In this document: positions 5,709-22,327 of the stretch, in pieces | How positions within the stretch are numbered: the first letter of the stretch is position 1 | Layout of the letters: each line of letters opens with the position of its first letter | Origin: a virus | IMG/VR virus record: IMGVR_UViG_3300030118_006029 | Span: 3,615 to 27,544 of that record | Reading direction: 5' to 3' (one strand) | Length of the DNA stretch: 23,930 nt | Program-made: the position numbers and the translations under genes | Notes under the pieces: model-generated | Seen by the model: only the letters and a program-made list of their open reading frames with translations | Databases searched by the model: none | Told to the model about the DNA's origin: nothing

Positions 5709-8700
5709 ATGGCGAAGATACAGAATACTTTTACTCAAGGTAAAATGAACAAAGACCTTGATGAAAGATTACTGCCAGTTGGACAGTATAGACATGCTAT
5801 GAATGTGCAAGTTAATACTTCAGAGGGTTCTGATGTAGGTACTATACAAAATATATTAGGTACTAATAATAATTTACCTAAAATAGGTTCTGGTGGTGAT
5901 GGTGTTTGTGTTGGTTCTATAGCTGATGAAAAAAATAATCATGTATATTGGTTTACTAAACTAAGTGGTGGCGATAATATTATATCAAGATACAACACAG
6001 ACACTAACGTTCATGAGTTAGTTTTAGTTGATAAAAACGATATATTAGAGTTTACTTACGAAAATATTATAACTGGTATAAATATTGTTGATGATATGCT
6101 GTTTTTTACAGACAATATATCTGAGCCAAAAAAAATAAATATAACAAGATGTATTGAAGGTACAACTGATATAAACACACACACAAAGCTTGTTGTTAAT
6201 GGTGAAGTGGTTCAAGATATTGTACCTGCTACTTTTGGAACTCCTGGTTCTGCTACAGATGTTGATTTAAGAAAAGAGCATATAACTGTAATTAAAAAAG
6301 CACCTAAATATCCACCTGTATTAAAAATGTCTTCTGAATTACCAACTGGTGTTTTTAGCGGTAGCACTGAACGAGACTTTGATACTTATGGTGTAAACGA
6401 TACTTTACTTATAAACGTTGCTCTTCCAGCTAACGTAGATCCAAACTCTTCTTTTAACATACAGCAAGGAGATATAATAGTTTTACAAAACTATACTACA
6501 AACGTTCCTGACGTACCTTTATCTGAGTATGTTATCAGAGCTGAAGTTTTGCAAATAGTTTCTGGCACAAACCCTCCTTCGTTAAATAACGGTTTGACTT
6601 TATTTTCAATAAAAATACTTAGTAAATCAGTAGATACGCCTTCAGGTTTAGAGACTTATTATATGTCTCTGTTAATAGATAAAAAAAATAAATTTGAATT
6701 TAAATTTCCTAGATTTGCTTATAGATATAGATATGAAGATGGTGAATACTCTAGTTTTTCTCCTTTTTCAGAAATAGCTTTTTTACCTGGCGGTTTTGAT
6801 TATCATCCTAGAAAAGGTTATAATATAGGTATGACTAACAAATTAACTGACATATACGTAACAGAATTTGTAACAGAAGACCAACCTGAAGATGTTATTG
6901 AAATAGATTTATTATATAAAGAATCAGACTCATCATCTGTTTATGTAGTAGAAACTTTAAAACCTGAGAATGATGAGTATAAAGTTACTAACTTTGATGC
7001 TAATAACGGTATTTTAGATTTAAAAAGAAACGGTAGTTATTTAGTAAAATCAGAAACTATATATTCTTTATTACCTTCAAATCAAATATTAAGACCTTAT
7101 GATAATGTTCCTAGATTTGCTAAAGCTCAAGAGGTTGTAGCTAACAGATTAATATATGGTAATTATGTTCAAAACTATGATTTATCACCAAAAACAGAAA
7201 ATGCAGATTATAAAACTAAACTAAGTGTTGTTTTACAAAGTGAAAACGTAAACTCAAGTTTTGGTGTAAAATCTTTAAAATCACTTAGAGATTATCAAGT
7301 TGGCGTTGTGTATTTAGATGAGTATGGTAGACAAACACCGGTATTAACAACAAACACTTCTACAATAACTGTTGATAAGGCTAACGCTGATAAATCAAAT
7401 AAATTAAGAGTTCAAGTTTCTGGCGGACAACAAGCTCCACCTTGGGCAAAAGGTTTTAAATTTTATGTAAAAGAAACTACAGGTGAATATTATAATCTAG
7501 CTATGGATCGTTTCTACAATGCTGAAGACGGTAATATATGGTTAGCTTTTCCTTCTGTTGATAGAAATAAAGTAGATATAGAAACTTTTTTAATATTAAA
7601 AAAAGGTTCTGAATCTGATGATTTAGTTACTACAGAAGCTAAATACAAGGTAATAGCTATATCAAATGAAGCTCCAGACTTTATAAAAGAAAAATTTTTT
7701 CCACTTGGTAGTGTCGTAGAAAATAGTAGTAATCATTTATTTGGAAGCGTATCTAGTTTAATAGGTAGTAGAAGTATTAATATTTTAGAAGATCCTAACG
7801 GTGGGTTTGCTTTAAGAAACGGTAGCTTATCACATATACATGAAAAAGTTAAATCAAAAAGAGTAAGAATTAGATTTGAAGGTGGTAGTAATAATCAAGT
7901 GTCTAACTATTATGAAGTTACTACTATTGGTTATGAGCCTGGTTCTAGCGATTATCCTGTTGGTGAAATAAAAATAAATATAGAAGAAAATTTTGGGGCT
8001 GATGTTAATTTTATATTTGACAGTATTACCAATACTATTTCCAGTGGAATTAGATTAGTTTTTGAAGAGATAAAAGTTGTAAACTCACCTAAATTTGATG
8101 GTAGATTTTTTGTGAAAATATATAACGATGCTTCAGTGCAGCAGAACATAGGTGTTAATCAAAGCACTAGTAGTAAATATCAAGTTTTAACTTCTAGAAA
8201 ATTATATTATTTATCACCAAACCATATAGCTTTACACTCTTTAGGAGGCACAGGCGCTGTTAACGATCCTACGTACGATCCTAACACAACTACTTTTAAC
8301 GATGATTACCATGATAATGGTATAATTATACCGTCAAATATAAATTCTAACGATTGGTTTAGAGGTATTTATAGTAATTCTATTCCTGATTTTTGGTATA
8401 AGTATACTGCTTTTTTTAGAAATCAACATACATTTGATATAAACGATAGATCTTCTTCAGCTGATGCTAGTTCTTTTGAAGATGTTTGGTATATAGATGG
8501 TGGTTTATCAACTGGTACTTTTTCAAACTCTAATCCTATAAATTCAACAGGTACAAATCACACTAACGTGTCTGTAAATGCTTTTTCTCACCAAGGTATA
8601 GGTGTAACAAATTATACTAACTCTTCTGAAATAGAAATAGGTTTTGGAGGTATGCAGCCAGATCCTGATAAAGAAAACCAAGCTAACTCATACGCTTCAA

Positions 8701-11700
8701 GTCAATATGTACAAACTCTCGTACCACCTAATGTACAAGCTGCCGGTAATCTTAGCACTCAAGGTTGGACTACAGGAGGTTCAAGTATATACGCTATAGG
8801 TGTTGAAGCTAAAAACGAATATTATGGGCTTGAACAAAAAGAATTTGTAGATCCTATAATGACAGTTGGTACACAGTTTAGGTGGAAAGAAGATCCAAAC
8901 GGAACAGTATACACTATAGTAGGAAACAATAATCCAGACTGGTTTTTATTAAGATATAACAATGGAATATTAAATATGGGACCTCCTTTCGCTTCTAGAA
9001 CAGGTCTTAGACCAGAAAACTGGAATAGAAACTTTAGGATTACTTTAGATAAACCTATGCTTTGGAACCCTATAACAGACGGTGCTTTAAACGGTTATTC
9101 TCCAAACTCAATACAAGCTTTAACAAGTAATGGTAATTTACCTTCTGGCGTTACTTCTGCTACTTTTGTTACTATGGAAATAGTTAAACAAGTAGAAGAA
9201 GAAGTACCTTTAGCTTCAAATCCAGCTATATGGGAAACAGAACCAAAAGAAAAAGCAGAACTAGATATTTATTACGAAGCTAGTAATGTTTATCCAGTAA
9301 CTTTAGATGAAAAAAGTTTTAGTAGCATAATAAAAATAGGTTCTGTTATAAGTCAAGATCAAAATGGTACAATAGTTACTTCTATAGTAAGCGGTCATGA
9401 TGGTGATGATATTATAAACATAAGTAGTGCTTCAGTTTCGTTTGATCCTGCTTATATAGCTACTATAACTTACAACAACACATCATTAAACATTACTGTT
9501 GTTAGCATGCCTCAACCTGGTAAAGTAAAAATAAGTAGAAATATACATAACAGTCCGATAGAACTAGAGTGGTTTAATTGTTATAGTTTTGGTAATGGCG
9601 TCGAGTCTAATAGAATAGAAGATAATTTTAATAAAGCTTTTATAGATAATGGAGCTATTGCTTCAGCAACTTTATCAGATACATCTTTAATAAAAGAAGA
9701 ACGAAGAAAATATGGTTTAATATTTTCAGGATTATACAACACTATATCAAATATAAATAACTTAAATCAATTTATACAAGCAGAAAATATTACAAAAGAA
9801 ATTAACCCTACTTACGGTAGTATACAAAAATTATTTACTAGACAAACTGATTTAGTTACTTTATGTGAAGATAGAATTGTAAAAGTATTAGCAGATAAAA
9901 CAGCTTTATTTACAGCTGATGGTGAAAACAATGTAACTTCAACTTCTAACGTTTTAGGTCAAACAGTACCTTTTGTAGGTAGTTACGGTATATCACAAAA
10001 CCCAGAAAGTTTTGCTAGCGAAAGTTATAGAGCTTATTTTACAGATAAACAAAGAGGTGCTGTTTTAAGATTATCAATGGACGGTTTAACACCTATATCT
10101 GATGCTGGTATGAGAGACTGGTTTGGTGATAATTTAAAAAGCGCAAAATACTTAATAGGTAGCTATGATCAAGATAAAAGTGATTATAACATAACTATAT
10201 TTAACGATGCTTTAGTAAGAACTGCAGGTTTAAGCAGAGAAATAGATTATACTTTATCTTTTGATGAAGAAGTTAGAGGTTGGACAAGCTTTAAATCTTT
10301 TATACCAGAAAGTGGTGTTAGTTGTTCTAATAAATACTATACGTTTTATAAAGGTGATATATTTGAACACCATGCTGAAAACTCTCAAAGAAATAACTTT
10401 TACGGAGACTTTGAGCAAACTTTAGTTTCATTTATATTTAATCAAGAACCAAGTGTTGTTAAAGAGTTTAGAGCTTTAGTTTACGAAGGTAGTCAATCAA
10501 GAATATTAAGTGTATACGCTAACAACACTTATACAGATGCTAATGGTAATTTATTAACTTCTTCTAACGATAACTATAAAAATTTAGTTGCTAAAGACGG
10601 TTGGTATGCTCAAAAGTTAGAAACTGATTTAGAAAAAGGTATGATACCTTATTTTATTGAAAGAGAGAAAAAATGGTTCAACTACATTAGAGGTAACGAA
10701 ATAGATTATTCTCAAGGTAAATTAGTTGTAGACACATCTAAGTTTTCTGTACAAGGTATAGGTTTTGCTAACGACATACAGTCTACAGTAGCACCACCTC
10801 CACCACCCCCACCACCTCCACCTATAGTAGTAACTGGCTGTACAGACCCATTAGCGGCTAACTATGATCCAAACGCAACAGTTGATGATGGTAGTTGTGT
10901 TTATATAGTACAGCCCCCACCACCTCCACCTCTACCTGCATGTAATCATACATTTAGCGCAACGATGATTGTTATCACTTACGACTCTAACACAGAAAAA
11001 TTATCATACACGTTTACTATAGATGCTCCAACAGGAGGGATTGTTGATGCTAACGGTAATCAAAATTATAGATATGAAGCTCTTTACATGATAGATGGTT
11101 TTGGGTCTCAAACTGTAAAACCATTGGTTAACGCAACTAATACTTTAAACAACACTCCAGGTATGGTTGACGGAACTTATGTAGGTAGCCTCACTATTCA
11201 AGACGAGCAAGTTATAACAAATGATTACTCAGGTTATTTACCTATGCCAGCTGGTAGTCGTTTAGCTTTTATTACTGTAAGAGTTTACGATGAAAATCAT
11301 CCAACTAATGATCCTTTATATATACAAGCTAATCCAAGTACTTCTGGCTGTTTTGTAATACAAGCAATGCAATTTCCTATAACCGCAACTGTACCAACAC
11401 CACCACTTATACCTGGGTCTTTATCGCTTACACAAAATACAGTAAATTCACCGCTATACCCACACACTGGTTCAACCACTTACGTATTTATAGCTTTTCC
11501 AGTTTTAGTTTCTGGCGGCGTGCCATTTGCTTCACCAAACGCTCCTTATAATTATCCAGGTAATAACCTTGAGTATGCTACAATTGATTCAAACGGAGTA
11601 GTAGGCGCTTATACTCCAGTAATAAATTCTCCTAACAATTTATGGGGACTTGTTTTAACTAGTTCTCAAACAGGTACTTCAACAGTAGGTTTTACATATA

Positions 11701-11813
11701 ATTACCCCGTAAGAGGTGCTGGTGCTAATGTTAGAGTTAGGATGACAGTTTTAGATTCAACAGGAGCATCTGTAACATATAGCGCTGACATCCAATTAAT
11801 AAACCCAGAATAA
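5709..11813 (+). CDS. Giant tail stabilisation / muzzle-type protein with C-terminal modules
   Basis: A 2034-aa protein. Residues ~1-1690 resemble the large tail stabilisation (muzzle) proteins of crAss-like phages: MAKIQNTFTQGKMNKDLDER, a strand-rich region with VDDMLFFTDN and EPKKINITR, YRYEDGEYSSFSPFSEIAF (~338-360), a YGRQTPVL segment, and SMDGLTPISDAGMRDWF (~1456-1472). Repeated short strands suggest a beta-propeller or barrel body at the distal tail. After ~1690 the character changes: ten prolines (1696-1705), a GCTDP...DDGSC motif (1710-1730), six prolines (1736-1741), then two Ig/PKD-like beta-sandwich segments (~1745-1890 and ~1895-2034). The extension looks like a flexible, surface-exposed host-contact arm. 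It is tightly packed with its neighbours (3 bases before, 1 base after). The muzzle role is inferred from similarity and order; the domain boundaries are approximate. Confidence 0.75.
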   Translation: MAKIQNTFTQGKMNKDLDERLLPVGQYRHAMNVQVNTSEGSDVGTIQNILGTNNNLPKIGSGGDGVCVGSIADEKNNHVYWFTKLSGGDNIISRYNTDTNVHELVLVDKNDILEFTYENIITGINIVDDMLFFTDNISEPKKINITRCIEGTTDINTHTKLVVNGEVVQDIVPATFGTPGSATDVDLRKEHITVIKKAPKYPPVLKMSSELPTGVFSGSTERDFDTYGVNDTLLINVALPANVDPNSSFNIQQGDIIVLQNYTTNVPDVPLSEYVIRAEVLQIVSGTNPPSLNNGLTLFSIKILSKSVDTPSGLETYYMSLLIDKKNKFEFKFPRFAYRYRYEDGEYSSFSPFSEIAFLPGGFDYHPRKGYNIGMTNKLTDIYVTEFVTEDQPEDVIEIDLLYKESDSSSVYVVETLKPENDEYKVTNFDANNGILDLKRNGSYLVKSETIYSLLPSNQILRPYDNVPRFAKAQEVVANRLIYGNYVQNYDLSPKTENADYKTKLSVVLQSENVNSSFGVKSLKSLRDYQVGVVYLDEYGRQTPVLTTNTSTITVDKANADKSNKLRVQVSGGQQAPPWAKGFKFYVKETTGEYYNLAMDRFYNAEDGNIWLAFPSVDRNKVDIETFLILKKGSESDDLVTTEAKYKVIAISNEAPDFIKEKFFPLGSVVENSSNHLFGSVSSLIGSRSINILEDPNGGFALRNGSLSHIHEKVKSKRVRIRFEGGSNNQVSNYYEVTTIGYEPGSSDYPVGEIKINIEENFGADVNFIFDSITNTISSGIRLVFEEIKVVNSPKFDGRFFVKIYNDASVQQNIGVNQSTSSKYQVLTSRKLYYLSPNHIALHSLGGTGAVNDPTYDPNTTTFNDDYHDNGIIIPSNINSNDWFRGIYSNSIPDFWYKYTAFFRNQHTFDINDRSSSADASSFEDVWYIDGGLSTGTFSNSNPINSTGTNHTNVSVNAFSHQGIGVTNYTNSSEIEIGFGGMQPDPDKENQANSYASSQYVQTLVPPNVQAAGNLSTQGWTTGGSSIYAIGVEAKNEYYGLEQKEFVDPIMTVGTQFRWKEDPNGTVYTIVGNNNPDWFLLRYNNGILNMGPPFASRTGLRPENWNRNFRITLDKPMLWNPITDGALNGYSPNSIQALTSNGNLPSGVTSATFVTMEIVKQVEEEVPLASNPAIWETEPKEKAELDIYYEASNVYPVTLDEKSFSSIIKIGSVISQDQNGTIVTSIVSGHDGDDIINISSASVSFDPAYIATITYNNTSLNITVVSMPQPGKVKISRNIHNSPIELEWFNCYSFGNGVESNRIEDNFNKAFIDNGAIASATLSDTSLIKEERRKYGLIFSGLYNTISNINNLNQFIQAENITKEINPTYGSIQKLFTRQTDLVTLCEDRIVKVLADKTALFTADGENNVTSTSNVLGQTVPFVGSYGISQNPESFASESYRAYFTDKQRGAVLRLSMDGLTPISDAGMRDWFGDNLKSAKYLIGSYDQDKSDYNITIFNDALVRTAGLSREIDYTLSFDEEVRGWTSFKSFIPESGVSCSNKYYTFYKGDIFEHHAENSQRNNFYGDFEQTLVSFIFNQEPSVVKEFRALVYEGSQSRILSVYANNTYTDANGNLLTSSNDNYKNLVAKDGWYAQKLETDLEKGMIPYFIEREKKWFNYIRGNEIDYSQGKLVVDTSKFSVQGIGFANDIQSTVAPPPPPPPPPPIVVTGCTDPLAANYDPNATVDDGSCVYIVQPPPPPPLPACNHTFSATMIVITYDSNTEKLSYTFTIDAPTGGIVDANGNQNYRYEALYMIDGFGSQTVKPLVNATNTLNNTPGMVDGTYVGSLTIQDEQVITNDYSGYLPMPAGSRLAFITVRVYDENHPTNDPLYIQANPSTSGCFVIQAMQFPITATVPTPPLIPGSLSLTQNTVNSPLYPHTGSTTYVFIAFPVLVSGGVPFASPNAPYNYPGNNLEYATIDSNGVVGAYTPVINSPNNLWGLVLTSSQTGTSTVGFTYNYPVRGAGANVRVRMTVLDSTGASVTYSADIQLINPE
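10794..10931 (+). repeat. Paired polyproline hinges around a GCTDP...DDGSC motif
   Basis: Ten consecutive proline codons (10794-10823) and six more (10914-10931) flank a Cys-Asp-rich motif encoded at 10836-10898. The motif has two cysteines and spaced Asp/Asn residues, compatible with a small disulphide-closed or calcium-binding knot. It separates the tail body from the two C-terminal beta modules of the 2034-aa protein. Confidence 0.8.
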
Positions 11814-15919: not shown

Positions 15920-18900
15920 ATGTACGAATTACAAGGTCAAAAATTTACTTTAAATGAATTACAAGACTATGCTAGTAATAAAGGCATGGAGTTTGATGAT
16001 TTTATGTCTAGTATGCGTAATGCTGGATTAGTTGAAGTATCTGGTAAACAAGGTGAATCTAACTTTTTTGCTAATAACGCTATATTAGGCGGTAAAATAA
16101 TTGACTTTTTTGCTAATAACATACCAGATTATATTGATAGAGCTACTCCTGGTAAAGATGTTCAAGTAAGTTTTGAGTTTGCTGAAGATGAAGATAAAGA
16201 TTATGGCGCTATGGTTGACGTAATTAAAGGTCAAGTTGAAAAACCACCTTCAAAAGCAATGAAAAACTTTTATAAAATACTTGAAGAAAACGGTGGTGGT
16301 CCTATAGGTGTAATAAAAGCTTTTAGGGAAAATCCAGACATAGCACCTGAAGTTATAGTTACTTCTTTAGCTAGTGCAGTAAGTGCTGGTGTGTTTTCAG
16401 GAAAAGCTAGAAAATACGCTGCTATAGGTGGTGCGGCTGGTGTAAAAGCAGGAAAAGGTCGTGGAAAAATTCTTACAGGATCTCAAGGTGTGTTTGCTGG
16501 TTTGAGTATGTCTGTAGAAACTACTAGTAAGTTTGTTGAACTTTTATCTGAAGAGTTAGAAAAAATGCCCGGTGGTATTACTGAAGAAAATTTACAAAAA
16601 ATAGTTGCAGATAAAAATAAGTTTCAAAAAATAAAAAATAAATCTTACGCTAAAGGAATAACTGTAGGTGTTATAGATTTTGCTACTGGTTTTGCAACTA
16701 CTAAAGCCGCGAGTAAAGTTGTTGAAAAAACAGGTAGTAAGTTATTAGCTACAGGTGCTGGAGCTGGTGTAGAAGGTTTTGGTGGTGGTTTTGGTGAAGC
16801 TGCTAGTAGTGTTGTTATTGGTGAAGATGTTGATGCTGGTGCTGTTGGTTTAGAAATAATTGCTGAGTACGCTAGAGCACCGGTAGATATAGGTGGTGCT
16901 TTATTAAGACCTTCAAAAAAACCTCAGTATTTTATAAATGATCAAGAAGTTTCGTTTGGCGAAATGAGAAACTTTGTAAATACAGCTGATGACATGCAAA
17001 TAGCTATGGCTAATATACGTATGAAAAATGATTTCACAGGTATAGGTAAAAAAGCTGCTGCTAAACAAGAAGCTGCTAGAAAATCTGTAGAGCTTTCTGG
17101 TGATACACAGACTATTGCAGATGTTGAAGCTGCTAAAGCAAAACAGCAAGCTGGTCAAGCGGAGCAAGATTTTCAAGCAAATATGGCTTTTGCTAAAAAA
17201 CACAGCAAATTATTTGGTTTAAAATTTACAACTTTAACTCAAGATCAAATAAAACAAAGATTTAAAAACACAGAAAATGCTGAGTTAAGTGAATCTTTAG
17301 GTGGTATTATAGGTGATGAAATAATAATAAATAAAACTTTAGCTAAAACTAGAGTTTATGGTAAAAACGTAGGTAATCATGAACTTTTACACGCTATAAT
17401 AAAAGCTAGTGGTCAACAAAAATTAATAACACAAGCAACTATAGATGATTTTTTAAATGTTATAGGTAAAGACAATGCTGCTAAAGTTCAAAAAAGATTA
17501 GACGATAACTATACTAAAGAATATGTTTCTCAAAATTTAGATGAGTATTTTACAGCTTTTTCTGATGCTATAGCTAATGATGAAATAGTATTTAATGATA
17601 GTATTTTTACACAAGTAAAAGATGTTATGAGAAGATTATTTGCTAGTGTAGGTATTGCAAATGTTGATTTTCAAACTGGAAGAGGTGCTTATAACTTTTT
17701 AAAAGACTATAACAAAAGCATACATAAAGGATCTTTATCTTTTGGTATAAGACAAAAAGTTAAAGGACCTGTAAACATTGAGCAAAGTAAATTTTCTAAA
17801 GAAGCATCAGATAAAGTTCAAGACTTATATAATAGAAAAGGTGTAGATGGTGCTTTTGAAATAATGCAAATGTTTAGACCAATAGTAAACCGTATAGTTG
17901 AAAGACGTAGCCAAGCACCTAACTTTGATAGAGAGTTATTAACTAGTGAAATAGAAATAGGTGAAAGAGGTGTATTAGATTTAATTAGAGACTATAAGCC
18001 AGACTCAGGTGTACCTTTAGCTGCTTATATAAATAAATTTTTACCAGCAAGAGCTATAGAAGCTTCTAGACGTGTTTTAGGTGAAGAGTTTACGGTTGAT
18101 GTAGAAGAAGCTAAAGCTATTGAAGCTAGAGAAGAAACTGTTGAAACTAAAGCAAAGCCAAAACCTAAAAAAATTGTTTTATCTAGTAGGTTAGGTGTAT
18201 CAACACAAGTAAAAGATATTGTTAGTAAAAAATTATCTAATTTAAACATAAAAGATTTAAACTTTAAAAACTTAAAAGATTTAACTCCAGAAGTAACAGG
18301 TAAACTTTTTGGTATATCACCTAAAAAATTAATTAGTCTAGCTAATTTAACTAAAAAAGAATTACAGTCTGCTCAAATGTTTATTAATAAAAACGCAGAT
18401 TTATTAATATCAATGTTACCTGAAGGTAGCACAGCTAGTGGTACAGCTACTGGTGTGCCTAGAACTTTATTAAACGCTTTTTATACTAAAACTGATAGAG
18501 CAAAAATGGCTAAAACAGGTAGTAAGTCTGGTTTAGCGATACAAGTAAAAAATAAAATAAATAAAAAAGAATTTTTAGAAGTTTTTGGTATTGTTGATGG
18601 TAAACCGCAGCGTGATGATAGAAACACGTCAGCAAGAGTTTTAGCTATAGCTAATTTAACTGGAAAAATGATGACTAATCAAGAAGTTAGATCACAGCTA
18701 CAACAAACAGATACTTCTGAGCAAACGATACAAAATATTAAAGATGGTAAATCTGAAATTTTATTTAGCAAAAGTAAAGTTAAAAAATTTAGTGAAAAAT
18801 ATAATTTAGATTTTTTTGATATAAACGATCCTAGTAACGGTTTTGAAAACTATAATATTTTCATGGACAACATGATTTTGTTATCAGATTATCTACCACC

Positions 18901-21900
18901 TGGTTTTATTAGAGCTGTTGATTTAAGAAGTTTTGGTATTAGTAATCCTGCTGTAAAAGTTTACGCTAGAACAAATTCTTTAGCTTTTGAATATTTTACT
19001 GTAGGTAAATCAGAAAATATAAAGTATTATAGACCAGATACTTTTTTAGGTAAAAATATAAAAGATATAACAAAAGAAAATATTAAAGAATATAATGAGG
19101 CTGGTGTAAAAAACTTTGATGTAATGTGGAAAGGTATTGAAGCTGCGTTAAAAGCAAATCCTAACAACAAACAACTGGCAATTTCTATATATATTTACCT
19201 TACTAGCGCTTTAAATGACACATCACATCCTTTAAGAACTGGCGCTAAATACGTTGGTGGTGACCCTTCAGCTACAGGAAAAATAGTTTATGAACATGCT
19301 TTACAAAGTGTTAATGTTAGAGATCAATTGTTAGATTCTATTTTAAACCCTAAAAGTGAAAACAACTTTGTAGATACTTTTAAAGCTATTAAGAAAAATT
19401 ACTTTTTAATAGCTATGAGTAAACAAGACGCTGATATAGTTGATACTACAACTTACATTGACGAAAACAATAAAAAAGTAAAGTATAAAACTGGTATGGG
19501 TAAAGGTTGGAACGTTTTTAACAACAACTGGTGGCAAAGATATTTTAACGAAGATGTAGCTCTTAATCCTGATAAGTTTATATTTGTTGAAAACGGTAAA
19601 ACTTTTACAGAGCAGTTTGGCGCTGTTAAGTTTAGCAAAAGTGGCTCTATACAGCAAGCTGCTAGTGTACCTTTTGCAAACGCTAGAACAACAGCTAAGT
19701 ATAGTAAATCATCAAGAGGTATGAGTACTTTTGATTTTGATGAAACGTTAATCGTAGAAGGTAAAAACTTCATTACAGCTACTAAAGGAAATAAAACTAT
19801 AAAAATCAGTAGCGCAGACTGGCCTATAGTTGGTGAAAGTTTTGCTAATCAAGGTTATAGTTTTGATTTTAGTGATTTTGTAAACGTACGTGGTGGTATT
19901 GACGGGCCTTTGCTACAAAAAATGCGTAATCAAATTAAAAAGTTTGGGCCAAGTAACGTGTTCGTTTTAACAGCTAGACCACCTGAAAGCGCAACAGCAA
20001 TACATGGTTGGTTAAAAAGTAAAAACATAAACATACCTTTAGAAAATATAACTGGTTTAGGCAACAGTAGTGGTGAAGCAAAAGCTGTGTGGATGCTTAA
20101 TAAATTTGCAGAAGGTTATAATGATATGTATTTTGTTGATGACGCTTTACCAAACGTAAAAGCTGTTAAACAAGCACTAGAACAGTTAGATATTAAATCA
20201 AACGTACAGCAAGCTAGAATTAAATTTAGCAAATCAATAAATGAAGACTTTAATAGTATATTAGAAGATGTTTCTGGTATTAAATCTGAAAGAAGATATT
20301 CTGATGCTAGAGCTAATAAAGCTGGTGAGGGTAAAGGTGGTTTTAGATTTTTTGTACCACCATCACACGAAGACTTTGCTGGTTTGTTATACAACTTTAT
20401 GGGTAAAGGCAGGCTTGGTAACAAGCATAGAGAGTTTTTTGAAAGAACTTTATTAAAACCTTTAGCTAGAGGTTATAGAGAGTTAAACATGGCTAAACAA
20501 GCTATAGCTAATGACTATAGAGTTTTAATAAAAAAAGCACCTTTAACACGTAAAAAATTAAGAAGAAAAATACCTGGTAGTGACTATTATTACAGTGACG
20601 CTGTAAGAGTTTATTTGTGGAATAAAGCTGGTTTTGACATACCAGGTATATCACAAACAGAAATAAACGAATTAATTGATATAGTTAACTCAAGTGTTAA
20701 TTTAAGAAACTTTGCTAACGTAGTTAGTAAAATATCTAGACAAAAAGAAGGTTATATAGAGCCTAGTGAAAACTGGCAAGTCGGTGATATAAGAACTGAC
20801 TTACAAGACGCTACAGGTAGAGTTGGTAGAAAAAGATTTTTTAATGAATATTTAGAAAACTCTAAAATAATATTTAGTAAAGAAAACTTAAACAAAATAG
20901 AAGCTGCTTATGGCGCTGATTTTAGAAGCGCACTAGAAGATATGTTGTATCGTATTGAAAAAGGTAGTAACAGACCAACTGGTCAAAATAAAAATGTAAA
21001 TTTATTTTTAGATTATATAAACGGATCTATTGGCGCAACTATGTTTTTTAACGCAAGATCAGCTGTATTACAGACTATATCTACAGTTAACTTTATAAAC
21101 TTTGGAGATAACAATATATTTAAAGCCGCAGAAGCTTTTAGTAATCAAGAGCAGTTTTGGACTGATTTTAAAACGCTATTTAACTCTGATATGTTAAAAC
21201 AAAGAAGAGCTGGTGTTGCTTTTGATTTAAATGCTAGTGAAATAGCAAGTGCTGTAAGTAAAGCTAAAACACCTACAGGTAAAGCTAGAGCAGCTATTGC
21301 TTATTTGTTACAAATAGGTTTTTTACCTACACAATTAGCTGATAGTTTTGCTATAGCTTTTGGTGGGGCTACAATGTATAGAAATAGAATTAAAACATAC
21401 AGACAGCAAGGGTTTACACAGCAACAAGCTGAAACAAAAGCTTTTGAAGACTTTCAAGAAATATCTGAAAGCACACAGCAGTCTGCTAGGCCAGATAAAA
21501 TATCACAACAGCAAGCTTCTGTTCTTGGTAGATTAATATTAGCTTTTCAAAACACACCGTCACAGTATGTTAGGTTAATGAAAAAAGCTGGTTCTGATTT
21601 AATTAATAGAAGAATATCTAAAGGTTACAACGATCAAGCTAGAAGTGATATGTCAAATATATCTAAAATAATATATTATGGGGCTGTACAAAACGTAATA
21701 TTCTATAGTTTACAGTCAGCTTTATTTGCTATGTTATTTGGTGAAGATGATGAAGATGAAGAAAAAACAGAAAAGTTTTTCAAAACTAAAAAACAAAGAG
21801 TTGTTAACGGGAGTATAGATACTGTTTTACGTGGCGCTGGTATTGCAGGCGCCGTAGTATCTACAATAAAAAATACAGCTATAAAATATGCTGAAAACCA

Positions 21901-22327
21901 AAAGAAAAACTGGGGTAAAGAAGACAATATTATTATGATGGAACTATTACAGCTTTCACCACCAATAGGTATTAAAGCTAGAAAATATAGAAGTTACGAA
22001 AAAACCATGGATTATAACAAAAAAGTAATTGATGAAATGGACACTTTTGATATTAATAATCCTATATGGGATGCATACTCTCAAATAATAGAAGCTGCTA
22101 CAAATGTACCTTTAGCAAGACTATATAGAAAAGTTGATAACTTAAGAGCTGCTGTAGATACTGAAAACGCTTGGTGGCAGAGACTTGCTACTGGTTTAGG
22201 TTGGAGCCGTTGGGATGTTGGTGTAAAAGATAAAGAAGTTGATGAGGTAAGAGATTACATTAAAAAATCTAACAAAAGTAGAAATAAAAAGAAAAAAGGT
22301 TTAAAGCAAAAAGAAATATTATTTTAA
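15920..22327 (+). CDS. Giant polyvalent virion protein: HExxH protease, sigma-like region, HAD phosphatase
   Basis: The ATG at 15920, 1 base after the upstream stop, is preferred over the in-frame TTG at 15911; the product is 2135 aa. Order by residue: N-terminal YELQGQKFTLNELQDYASNK module (1-30); two Gly/Ala-rich membrane-active stretches (~140-190, ~245-310); HELLH metallopeptidase motif (487-491) with E542 (in LDEYFTAF) as possible third zinc ligand; sigma-70 region 2-like helices (~630-720); uncharacterised regions (~725-1236); HAD phosphatase (~1268-1425) with D1272/D1274, T1351, K1388 and D1407/D1408; a long C-terminal region of large-polyvalent-protein type (~1450-1950) with a hydrophobic helix near 1917-1945; basic tail. 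The motif [KL][FY]SK[SE] recurs at 624, 948, 1237, 1260 and 1435, at domain borders. It is probably packaged, ejected and processed. The families are recognised by motif; the processing is inference. Confidence 0.78.
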   Translation: MYELQGQKFTLNELQDYASNKGMEFDDFMSSMRNAGLVEVSGKQGESNFFANNAILGGKIIDFFANNIPDYIDRATPGKDVQVSFEFAEDEDKDYGAMVDVIKGQVEKPPSKAMKNFYKILEENGGGPIGVIKAFRENPDIAPEVIVTSLASAVSAGVFSGKARKYAAIGGAAGVKAGKGRGKILTGSQGVFAGLSMSVETTSKFVELLSEELEKMPGGITEENLQKIVADKNKFQKIKNKSYAKGITVGVIDFATGFATTKAASKVVEKTGSKLLATGAGAGVEGFGGGFGEAASSVVIGEDVDAGAVGLEIIAEYARAPVDIGGALLRPSKKPQYFINDQEVSFGEMRNFVNTADDMQIAMANIRMKNDFTGIGKKAAAKQEAARKSVELSGDTQTIADVEAAKAKQQAGQAEQDFQANMAFAKKHSKLFGLKFTTLTQDQIKQRFKNTENAELSESLGGIIGDEIIINKTLAKTRVYGKNVGNHELLHAIIKASGQQKLITQATIDDFLNVIGKDNAAKVQKRLDDNYTKEYVSQNLDEYFTAFSDAIANDEIVFNDSIFTQVKDVMRRLFASVGIANVDFQTGRGAYNFLKDYNKSIHKGSLSFGIRQKVKGPVNIEQSKFSKEASDKVQDLYNRKGVDGAFEIMQMFRPIVNRIVERRSQAPNFDRELLTSEIEIGERGVLDLIRDYKPDSGVPLAAYINKFLPARAIEASRRVLGEEFTVDVEEAKAIEAREETVETKAKPKPKKIVLSSRLGVSTQVKDIVSKKLSNLNIKDLNFKNLKDLTPEVTGKLFGISPKKLISLANLTKKELQSAQMFINKNADLLISMLPEGSTASGTATGVPRTLLNAFYTKTDRAKMAKTGSKSGLAIQVKNKINKKEFLEVFGIVDGKPQRDDRNTSARVLAIANLTGKMMTNQEVRSQLQQTDTSEQTIQNIKDGKSEILFSKSKVKKFSEKYNLDFFDINDPSNGFENYNIFMDNMILLSDYLPPGFIRAVDLRSFGISNPAVKVYARTNSLAFEYFTVGKSENIKYYRPDTFLGKNIKDITKENIKEYNEAGVKNFDVMWKGIEAALKANPNNKQLAISIYIYLTSALNDTSHPLRTGAKYVGGDPSATGKIVYEHALQSVNVRDQLLDSILNPKSENNFVDTFKAIKKNYFLIAMSKQDADIVDTTTYIDENNKKVKYKTGMGKGWNVFNNNWWQRYFNEDVALNPDKFIFVENGKTFTEQFGAVKFSKSGSIQQAASVPFANARTTAKYSKSSRGMSTFDFDETLIVEGKNFITATKGNKTIKISSADWPIVGESFANQGYSFDFSDFVNVRGGIDGPLLQKMRNQIKKFGPSNVFVLTARPPESATAIHGWLKSKNINIPLENITGLGNSSGEAKAVWMLNKFAEGYNDMYFVDDALPNVKAVKQALEQLDIKSNVQQARIKFSKSINEDFNSILEDVSGIKSERRYSDARANKAGEGKGGFRFFVPPSHEDFAGLLYNFMGKGRLGNKHREFFERTLLKPLARGYRELNMAKQAIANDYRVLIKKAPLTRKKLRRKIPGSDYYYSDAVRVYLWNKAGFDIPGISQTEINELIDIVNSSVNLRNFANVVSKISRQKEGYIEPSENWQVGDIRTDLQDATGRVGRKRFFNEYLENSKIIFSKENLNKIEAAYGADFRSALEDMLYRIEKGSNRPTGQNKNVNLFLDYINGSIGATMFFNARSAVLQTISTVNFINFGDNNIFKAAEAFSNQEQFWTDFKTLFNSDMLKQRRAGVAFDLNASEIASAVSKAKTPTGKARAAIAYLLQIGFLPTQLADSFAIAFGGATMYRNRIKTYRQQGFTQQQAETKAFEDFQEISESTQQSARPDKISQQQASVLGRLILAFQNTPSQYVRLMKKAGSDLINRRISKGYNDQARSDMSNISKIIYYGAVQNVIFYSLQSALFAMLFGEDDEDEEKTEKFFKTKKQRVVNGSIDTVLRGAGIAGAVVSTIKNTAIKYAENQKKNWGKEDNIIMMELLQLSPPIGIKARKYRSYEKTMDYNKKVIDEMDTFDINNPIWDAYSQIIEAATNVPLARLYRKVDNLRAAVDTENAWWQRLATGLGWSRWDVGVKDKEVDEVRDYIKKSNKSRNKKKKGLKQKEILF

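Follow-up and report, generated by a model that had tools for sequence, protein, structure and literature searches.

A Phe-Ser-Lys/Arg signature at the module borders of a giant phage polyvalent protein

Giant multi-domain proteins that phages send into their hosts have parts that are hard to define, and their fate in the cell is mostly obscure. The window analyzed here, 23,930 of the 27,544 bases of IMG/VR virus record IMGVR_UViG_3300030118_006029, encodes a 2135-aa polyvalent-type protein (positions 15920-22327 of the window; plus strand, as for all features below) with an open frame from ATG to stop and homologues over most of its length. A short motif recurs along this chain, and the original prediction that it is a border marker between modules is confirmed. 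F-S-[KR] marks module borders in a large class of phage polyvalent proteins, and it is very probable that [FY]-S-[KR], in its commonest form [VI]-K-F-S-K-[ST], is a selected inter-module signal in flexible joints. Proteolytic processing at the motif is a further step, to which we give an even chance.

Motif copies and predicted units

Strict copies of the motif, [KR][FY]S[KR], lie at residues 624, 1237, 1260 and 1435, four where 0.26 are expected, and none of 5000 composition shuffles of the 2135-aa protein attains four. The related forms are likewise in excess ([FY]SKS, 4 observed vs 0.10 expected; FSK, 5 observed vs 0.79 expected), and the other proteins of the window carry no comparable pile-up. 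The coordinates with which the motif had first been described proved exact, both for the residues and for the nucleotides (17789-20236). Because it was spotted post hoc, the p-value from a single protein is insufficient alone, and the question is settled by the homologue and collection-wide tests described below.

AlphaFold models calculated on homologue alignments (residues 430-985, mean predicted local distance difference test score, pLDDT, 78; residues 925-1500, mean pLDDT 80.5) place in order a zincin-like domain, two helical units (the first sigma-like), a HAD domain and the start of a C-terminal module. The internal segments with pLDDT <50 (622-625, 724-747, 865-868, 943-954, 1028-1030, 1242-1261, 1435-1460 and 1472-1478) comprise 9-14% of the modeled residues; sites 625, 949, 1261 and 1436 fall inside them and 1238 lies four residues ahead of one. 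The sites had been placed between recognizable units from the sequence, and the models bear this out, with all five main sites in or beside low-confidence linkers between predicted folded units. KFSKE (aa 624-628, 17789-17803) forms the joint between the zincin and the sigma-like unit, with a helix from residue 627, and LFSKS (aa 948-952, 18761-18775) the joint between the sigma-like and helical units, followed by a weaker variant seen in the sequence alone, KFSE (aa 956-959, 18785-18796). KFSKS (aa 1237-1241, 19628-19642), the first of two sites ahead of the HAD domain, directly precedes the low-confidence segment 1242-1261. KYSKS (aa 1260-1264, 19697-19711), immediately before the domain, closes this linker, and KFSKS (aa 1435-1439, 20222-20236), at the joint with the C-terminal module, starts the following one. 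The HAD phosphatase is therefore flanked on both sides by the motif, as had been proposed, with the sites at 1260 and 1435 framing aa 1267-1431.

Two further copies had been overlooked. RRYSD at 1459 (RYSD, aa 1459-1462, 20294-20305) is an FS site 24 residues past the post-HAD site; its Ser is nearly invariant in homologues and invariant in the 16 most divergent full-length ones. Paired FS sites some 23-24 residues apart consequently flank the HAD domain (1237/1260 and 1435/1459). IFSKE at 1651 (FSK, aa 1652-1654, 20873-20881) is not a border site, as it lies inside the conserved C-terminal module, where its context, IIFSKENLNKIEA, is conserved in 17 homologues.

Conservation at the joints and control motifs

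The motif family comprises approximately 150 relatives in two sets. Set 1 consists of 80 loci with relatives found by a profile scan of viral contigs and two more from another search, from which 81 relatives were aligned with MAFFT together with the window protein (82 members); set 2 consists of 71 members found via a distant HAD domain, a few of whose loci overlap set 1. The strict motif is enriched in both, with 73 observed vs ~20 expected in the set 1 proteins and 71 vs 19.4 in set 2. The alignment proposed with the original prediction shows FS[KR] kept at the same joints as the flanks change. Across the 82 members, [FY]S[KR] has hot spots (window numbering) at 626 (n=14), 950 (n=27), 1238-1245 (n=14), 1255-1266 (n~29, e.g. 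YSKTSRGMSTFDFDET and YSKDSRGMSTFDFDET), 1437 (n=49) and 1461 (n=11). At joint 626 the sequence before the motif is variable and at least three different modules begin after it. At joint 950, where 55 homologues carry [FYL]S, the segment leading up to the joint ends in a conserved stretch (...GKSxxMFSK or ...AAQSKAAFSK), and the sequences after it are unrelated. The 60-residue flanks of 55 members form 5 clusters upstream of this joint and 20 downstream. Conservation of Ser950 and Ser1437 reaches at least 90% in alignment A3, where the mean column identity is 24%, and one relative without the HAD domain, L254, still carries the motif ahead of its C-terminal module. Many homologues have no strict copy, and copies per protein range from 0 to at least 5.

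That the motif sits in poorly conserved columns overall is unsupported, as mean local conservation is 0.392 for motif positions and 0.387 for positions taken at random. There is no overall drop because the post-HAD and in-domain copies lie in conserved stretches, and the case for borders is built on the models and the clustering of modules rather than on local column conservation. In alignment A5, single members match lysozyme-type domains (GH108, SLT) or a zeta-toxin/AAA_33 kinase, which indicates that the modules exchanged in the family include wall-degrading and kinase units. Some relatives (L087, L089, L092, L094, L095 and others) come from metagenome-assembled genomes labeled Maricaulis, Woesearchaeota, Ilumatobacteraceae, Aliivibrio and Sphingobacteriales; these are probably mostly mis-binned viral contigs and hence provide poor host evidence.

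Control motifs indicate that the enrichment is specific to this protein family and to this order of residues. [FY]SK[SATGDE] occurs 165 times in the family vs 38.2 expected (4.3x), compared with 42 vs 38.3 (1.1x) in neighboring open reading frames of at least 120 aa at the same loci. The forward motif is found 295 times and the reversed [KR]S[FY] 139 times, and [KR][FY]S[KR] 76 times vs 11-22 for permuted, Thr-substituted or Ala-substituted four-residue forms; [KR][LIV]S[KR], which is built from commoner residues, reaches 63. We also scanned 2.9 million viral contigs blindly for IKFSK[ST], with the permuted IKSFK[ST] (same codons, F and S swapped) as control. Among the matches listed, IKFSK[ST] returned 46 frames of 100 aa or longer, including 15 that reached at least 1000 aa, 10 with HExxH; further [KR][FY]S[KR] numbered 23 vs 4.8 expected. 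The control, again among the matches listed, returned 38 frames, one of at least 1000 aa, none with HExxH and no further motifs (1.6 expected). Many of the 15 giant IKFSK[ST] proteins belong to the same broad family, with L248 (a methylase-helicase with LPD23) outside it. The methylase-helicase relatives of L248 in plasmids and phages are mostly without motif and without HExxH, and a 5391-aa protein of this type in Bacteroides phage BS-TP4 (L426:1132-17307) has neither. Of 120 matches to IRFSR, the GC-rich version, only L500 (two HExxH) and L516 are giant and polyvalent-like, and further motifs are unenriched; this poor yield makes generality beyond AT-rich phages weak.

Processing at the joints and its alternatives

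The zincin-like metallopeptidase domain (aa ~435-600, 17222-17719, pLDDT ~80-94) contains a HELLH active site (aa 487-491, 17378-17392) and a candidate third ligand, Glu542 (17543-17545). In alignment A2, invariance is confined to H487, E488, H491 and E542, the residues expected to bind zinc and act in catalysis. The model has the order of an MPTase fold, with three strands, a helix (481-497) bearing HExxH and a helix starting at the conserved Glu542; no solved zincin is among the Foldseek matches listed. The prediction of an active zincin in the chain is strongly supported by these conserved residues and the predicted fold. The presence of HExxH in the same chain as the motifs, first noticed in the window protein, is near-universal in the family: it occurs throughout the full-length members of set 1 and in 67/71 of set 2, within surrounding sequence of many kinds. 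Judged by sequence, the zincin slot is nearly always filled, by whichever zincin. Over roughly the first 1900 residues of the 16 most divergent full-length members, nothing but HExxH is invariant, which makes zincin cleavage the best single explanation for the motif.

Under cleavage by the zincin, the motif would be a recognition or cutting site that separates the chain into pieces of residues ~1-623 (N-terminal region and zincin), 624-948 (sigma-like), 949-1236 (helical), ~1261-1435 (HAD phosphatase) and 1436-2135 (C-terminal module), with the same-chain zincin as the prime candidate cutter. Thermolysin-type zincins usually prefer Phe at P1′, and a cut just before the Phe of the motif (Phe as P1′) would fit this preference. 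Once released, the sigma-like unit could, speculatively, redirect the host RNA polymerase. That polyvalent proteins are processed by their own zincins is an existing proposal, and P1 DdrB reportedly undergoes processing (PMC5512222). The self-cutting polyprotein suggested by the original prediction is plausible, and we judge the chances to be about equally divided. A broader and tentative proposal, to which we give somewhat less than an even chance, is that phage polyvalent proteins are generally cut at F-S-[KR], a role of the motif not described so far, and that hundreds of giant virion proteins of uncultured phages are polyproteins divided by their own zincin around entry, releasing effectors that include a sigma-like factor and a HAD phosphatase.

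Several observations weigh against this mechanism. The strongest against cutting by the zincin in cis is a clade in which EExxH replaces HExxH and the FSK sites are retained (L104, L129, L137, L155 and L215). This sub-clade, formed by four set 2 members and L215, has sequences such as APLEELFH with the remaining domain recognizable, and its EExxH version probably lacks classical zincin activity; the conflict would be resolved if Glu served as a metal ligand or if a different enzyme did the cutting. The motif is also constant across kinds of zincin, unlike a co-evolving cis protease and its site. In addition, FSK occurs inside conserved domains (hot spots 1115 and 1653, and SEFSKV within the set 2 HAD), HExxH occurs without [KR][FY]S[KR] in Flavobacterium elemoF gp18 and the MW202828 protein, and the N4 virion RNA polymerase has a zincin yet is packaged uncut (PMC5512222).

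The alternative that survives best, itself unlikely, is an uncut hinge, in which the units unfold and refold singly through the tail or the motif caps the helix with which the following unit starts, with Phe as a hydrophobic staple and Ser as the N-cap. The sites are in flexible joints, a helix begins soon after sites 624 and 1435, and the crAss001 cargo proteins are thought to unfold partly on ejection (PMC10172136), all of which would suit a hinge. However, a strand rather than a helix follows the pre-HAD site, and a flexible linker should need no nearly invariant Ser beside Phe and Lys/Arg across 20 unrelated downstream modules. Also unlikely is that a protease of the host, or another one of the phage, cuts the joints at F-S-K and that the zincin does another job, for example on host proteins. 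This would accommodate both the constancy of the motif across unrelated zincin types and its retention in the EExxH clade, but leaves HExxH near-universal in the same chain, and no HExxH open reading frame is found elsewhere in the EExxH loci examined. A docking signal for capsid packaging or partner binding, repeated at the joints as the only exposed places, would suit a motif that is short, repeated, exposed and protein-specific. It is rendered quite improbable by copy numbers that vary from none to several and by the many homologues that lack a strict copy; P1 DarB, for comparison, has a dedicated capsid localization signal (PMC9024508). Modules do swap at the joints, as they would if short conserved DNA at module borders served as recombination anchors, yet the Ser codons at one joint include TCN as well as AGY, two groups that no single substitution connects, and each hot spot has 5-20 different 9-mers. 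The mixed Ser codons indicate selection on protein rather than DNA, so that a DNA-level anchor, now very improbable and largely refuted, was rejected on the codon data. Chance in a Lys/Ser-rich protein, a concern with a post-hoc motif in a Lys-rich chain, is refuted to a negligible likelihood by the enrichment under composition or permutation controls in the window protein, both sets and the blind scan.

The joint signature provides exact, testable cut positions, shows where the units of a giant protein without annotation begin and end, and allows proteins of this kind to be recognized in raw sequence. The 2017 proposal of processing by a built-in zincin gave no site (PMC5512222), and if the motif is a cut site this older proposal becomes directly testable. 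Otherwise, it still has to be explained why modules with nothing else in common are linked through a nearly invariant Phe-Ser. The motif is unmentioned in the papers reached by text search, which leaves many journals outside its coverage.

The protein, its locus and known systems

The units between the joints differ in how closely they resemble known folds. The N-terminal region (aa 1-430, 15920-17209) has no known domain and matches phrog_32588, of unknown function (hmmscan against PHROGs, E 9e-27, aa 94-382). For the sigma-factor-like helical unit (aa ~627-945, 17798-18754), the top Foldseek matches in the PDB are nearly all sigma factors (e.g. 5h6x, TMt 0.63), weak and all at E of at least 0.12, and there is no Pfam or other profile match. 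The helical unit that follows (aa ~953-1230, 18776-19609) is unnamed and modeled mostly at pLDDT >90. The HAD phosphatase domain (aa 1267-1431, 19718-20212) has the motifs DFDET, LTAR and FVDD, invariant in alignments A3 and A6. The residues that define the family (DxDxT, T/S of motif II, Lys and DD of motif IV) are present as invariant D, D, T, T, K and DD on a predicted Rossmannoid fold, and Foldseek matches are the HAD folds of Ceg4, EYA2, Lem4 and Pnkp1 (best E 5.6e-3, prob 1.00). In two relatives (L093:1591-2640 and L095:3253-4302) a P-loop kinase (GGPGAGKTNVGKG) is inserted in the HAD domain, recalling polynucleotide kinase-phosphatase. This insertion and the Pnkp1 match suggest, speculatively, that the HAD domain may act on nucleic-acid ends in end repair. 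The C-terminal module of ~670 aa (20312-22324) is strongly conserved (alignment A8, mean column identity 53%) and has no NCBIfam or PHROGs family at significance. Its assignment to PLxRFG/tail-700 (NF032893) was rejected, with no NCBIfam match and an hhalign probability of 0.2% against the H66 C-terminus.

The window contains a head-tail gene block in which the 2135-aa protein is the last large gene. It also encodes a coat-type protein (phrog_13704 match) and, at 5709-11813, a 2034-aa muzzle-type tail protein (phrog_14478, with crAss_MUZ_C just under the Pfam cut-off) that has proline-rich repeats close to its C-terminus. By sequence, the muzzle-type protein links the phage to crass-like and phi38:1-like podoviruses, and, judged by this protein and the coat-type protein, the closest isolates are the Flavobacterium elemo phages and Cellulophaga phi38:1. 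The 2135-aa protein is likely located in the virion, because its gene has the same position, last large gene after a muzzle-type protein, as that of phi18:3 gp123, which is annotated as a virion protein from tandem mass spectrometry. A tblastn search of 50,697 phage records detected no relative of the whole protein, its HAD domain, its C-terminal part or L254, so that no isolate there with published virion proteomics carries the family.

The window protein belongs to the phage polyvalent proteins: it joins independent units in one polypeptide, which is probably carried in the virion. Proteins of this class combine 2 to 15 unrelated effector domains in one chain and include a metallopeptidase of the HExxH + Glu type (Iyer et al. 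2017, PMC5512222). At least two unrelated functional domains are present here, as predicted zincin, sigma-like, HAD and C-terminal modules, and the architecture is mosaic, as seen in the clusters on the two sides of joint 950 and in the absence of the HAD domain in L254. Together, the homologue sequences and the predicted structures show a modular chain. No Pfam LPD domain was recognized in the window protein, L254 or 16 homologues, but these domains are a frequent rather than a necessary trait of a class defined by its architecture.

Compared with the proteins of Iyer et al. 2017, the window protein shares a single chain of unrelated units with an HExxH + Glu zincin-like domain. It differs in the absence of a recognized Pfam LPD and in its combination of sigma-like unit, HAD and C-terminal module family, which is without match among isolated phages, and the F-S-[KR] joint signature is unmentioned in that study (PMC5512222). 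P1 DdrB, used as a positive-control check, is a virion protein, with a C-terminal HExxH zincin and reported processing, but has no [KR][FY]S[KR] and only KRFSY at ~756, which cannot be equated with the motif. The N4 virion RNA polymerase, also a giant protein with a zincin-like domain, is ejected from the virion; it contains one GKFSRK without clear enrichment. Cellulophaga phi38:1 gp101, phi18:3 gp123 and Flavobacterium elemoF gp18 resemble the window protein as last large structural genes after a muzzle-type protein; they differ in having no HAD and no [KR][FY]S[KR] enrichment, and HExxH is found only in elemoF gp18. The Crassvirales cargo proteins (crAss001 gp45-gp50) are alike by description, as large ejected virion cargo beside the muzzle protein, and the paper describing them reports no cleavage (PMC10172136). 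Pseudomonas phage H66 gp60 (PLxRFG/tail-700) differs in lacking [KR][FY]S[KR] and in a C-terminal module not detectably related to that of the window protein. It is a virion polyvalent protein, 3787 aa in length and identified by mass spectrometry, with two HExxH. Its [FY]S[KR] excess is modest (5 vs 1.46 expected, e.g. QFSRSG), with copies that include EFSRD at 876 and QFSRS at 2821, and H66 gp60 is the most practical isolate protein in which to look.

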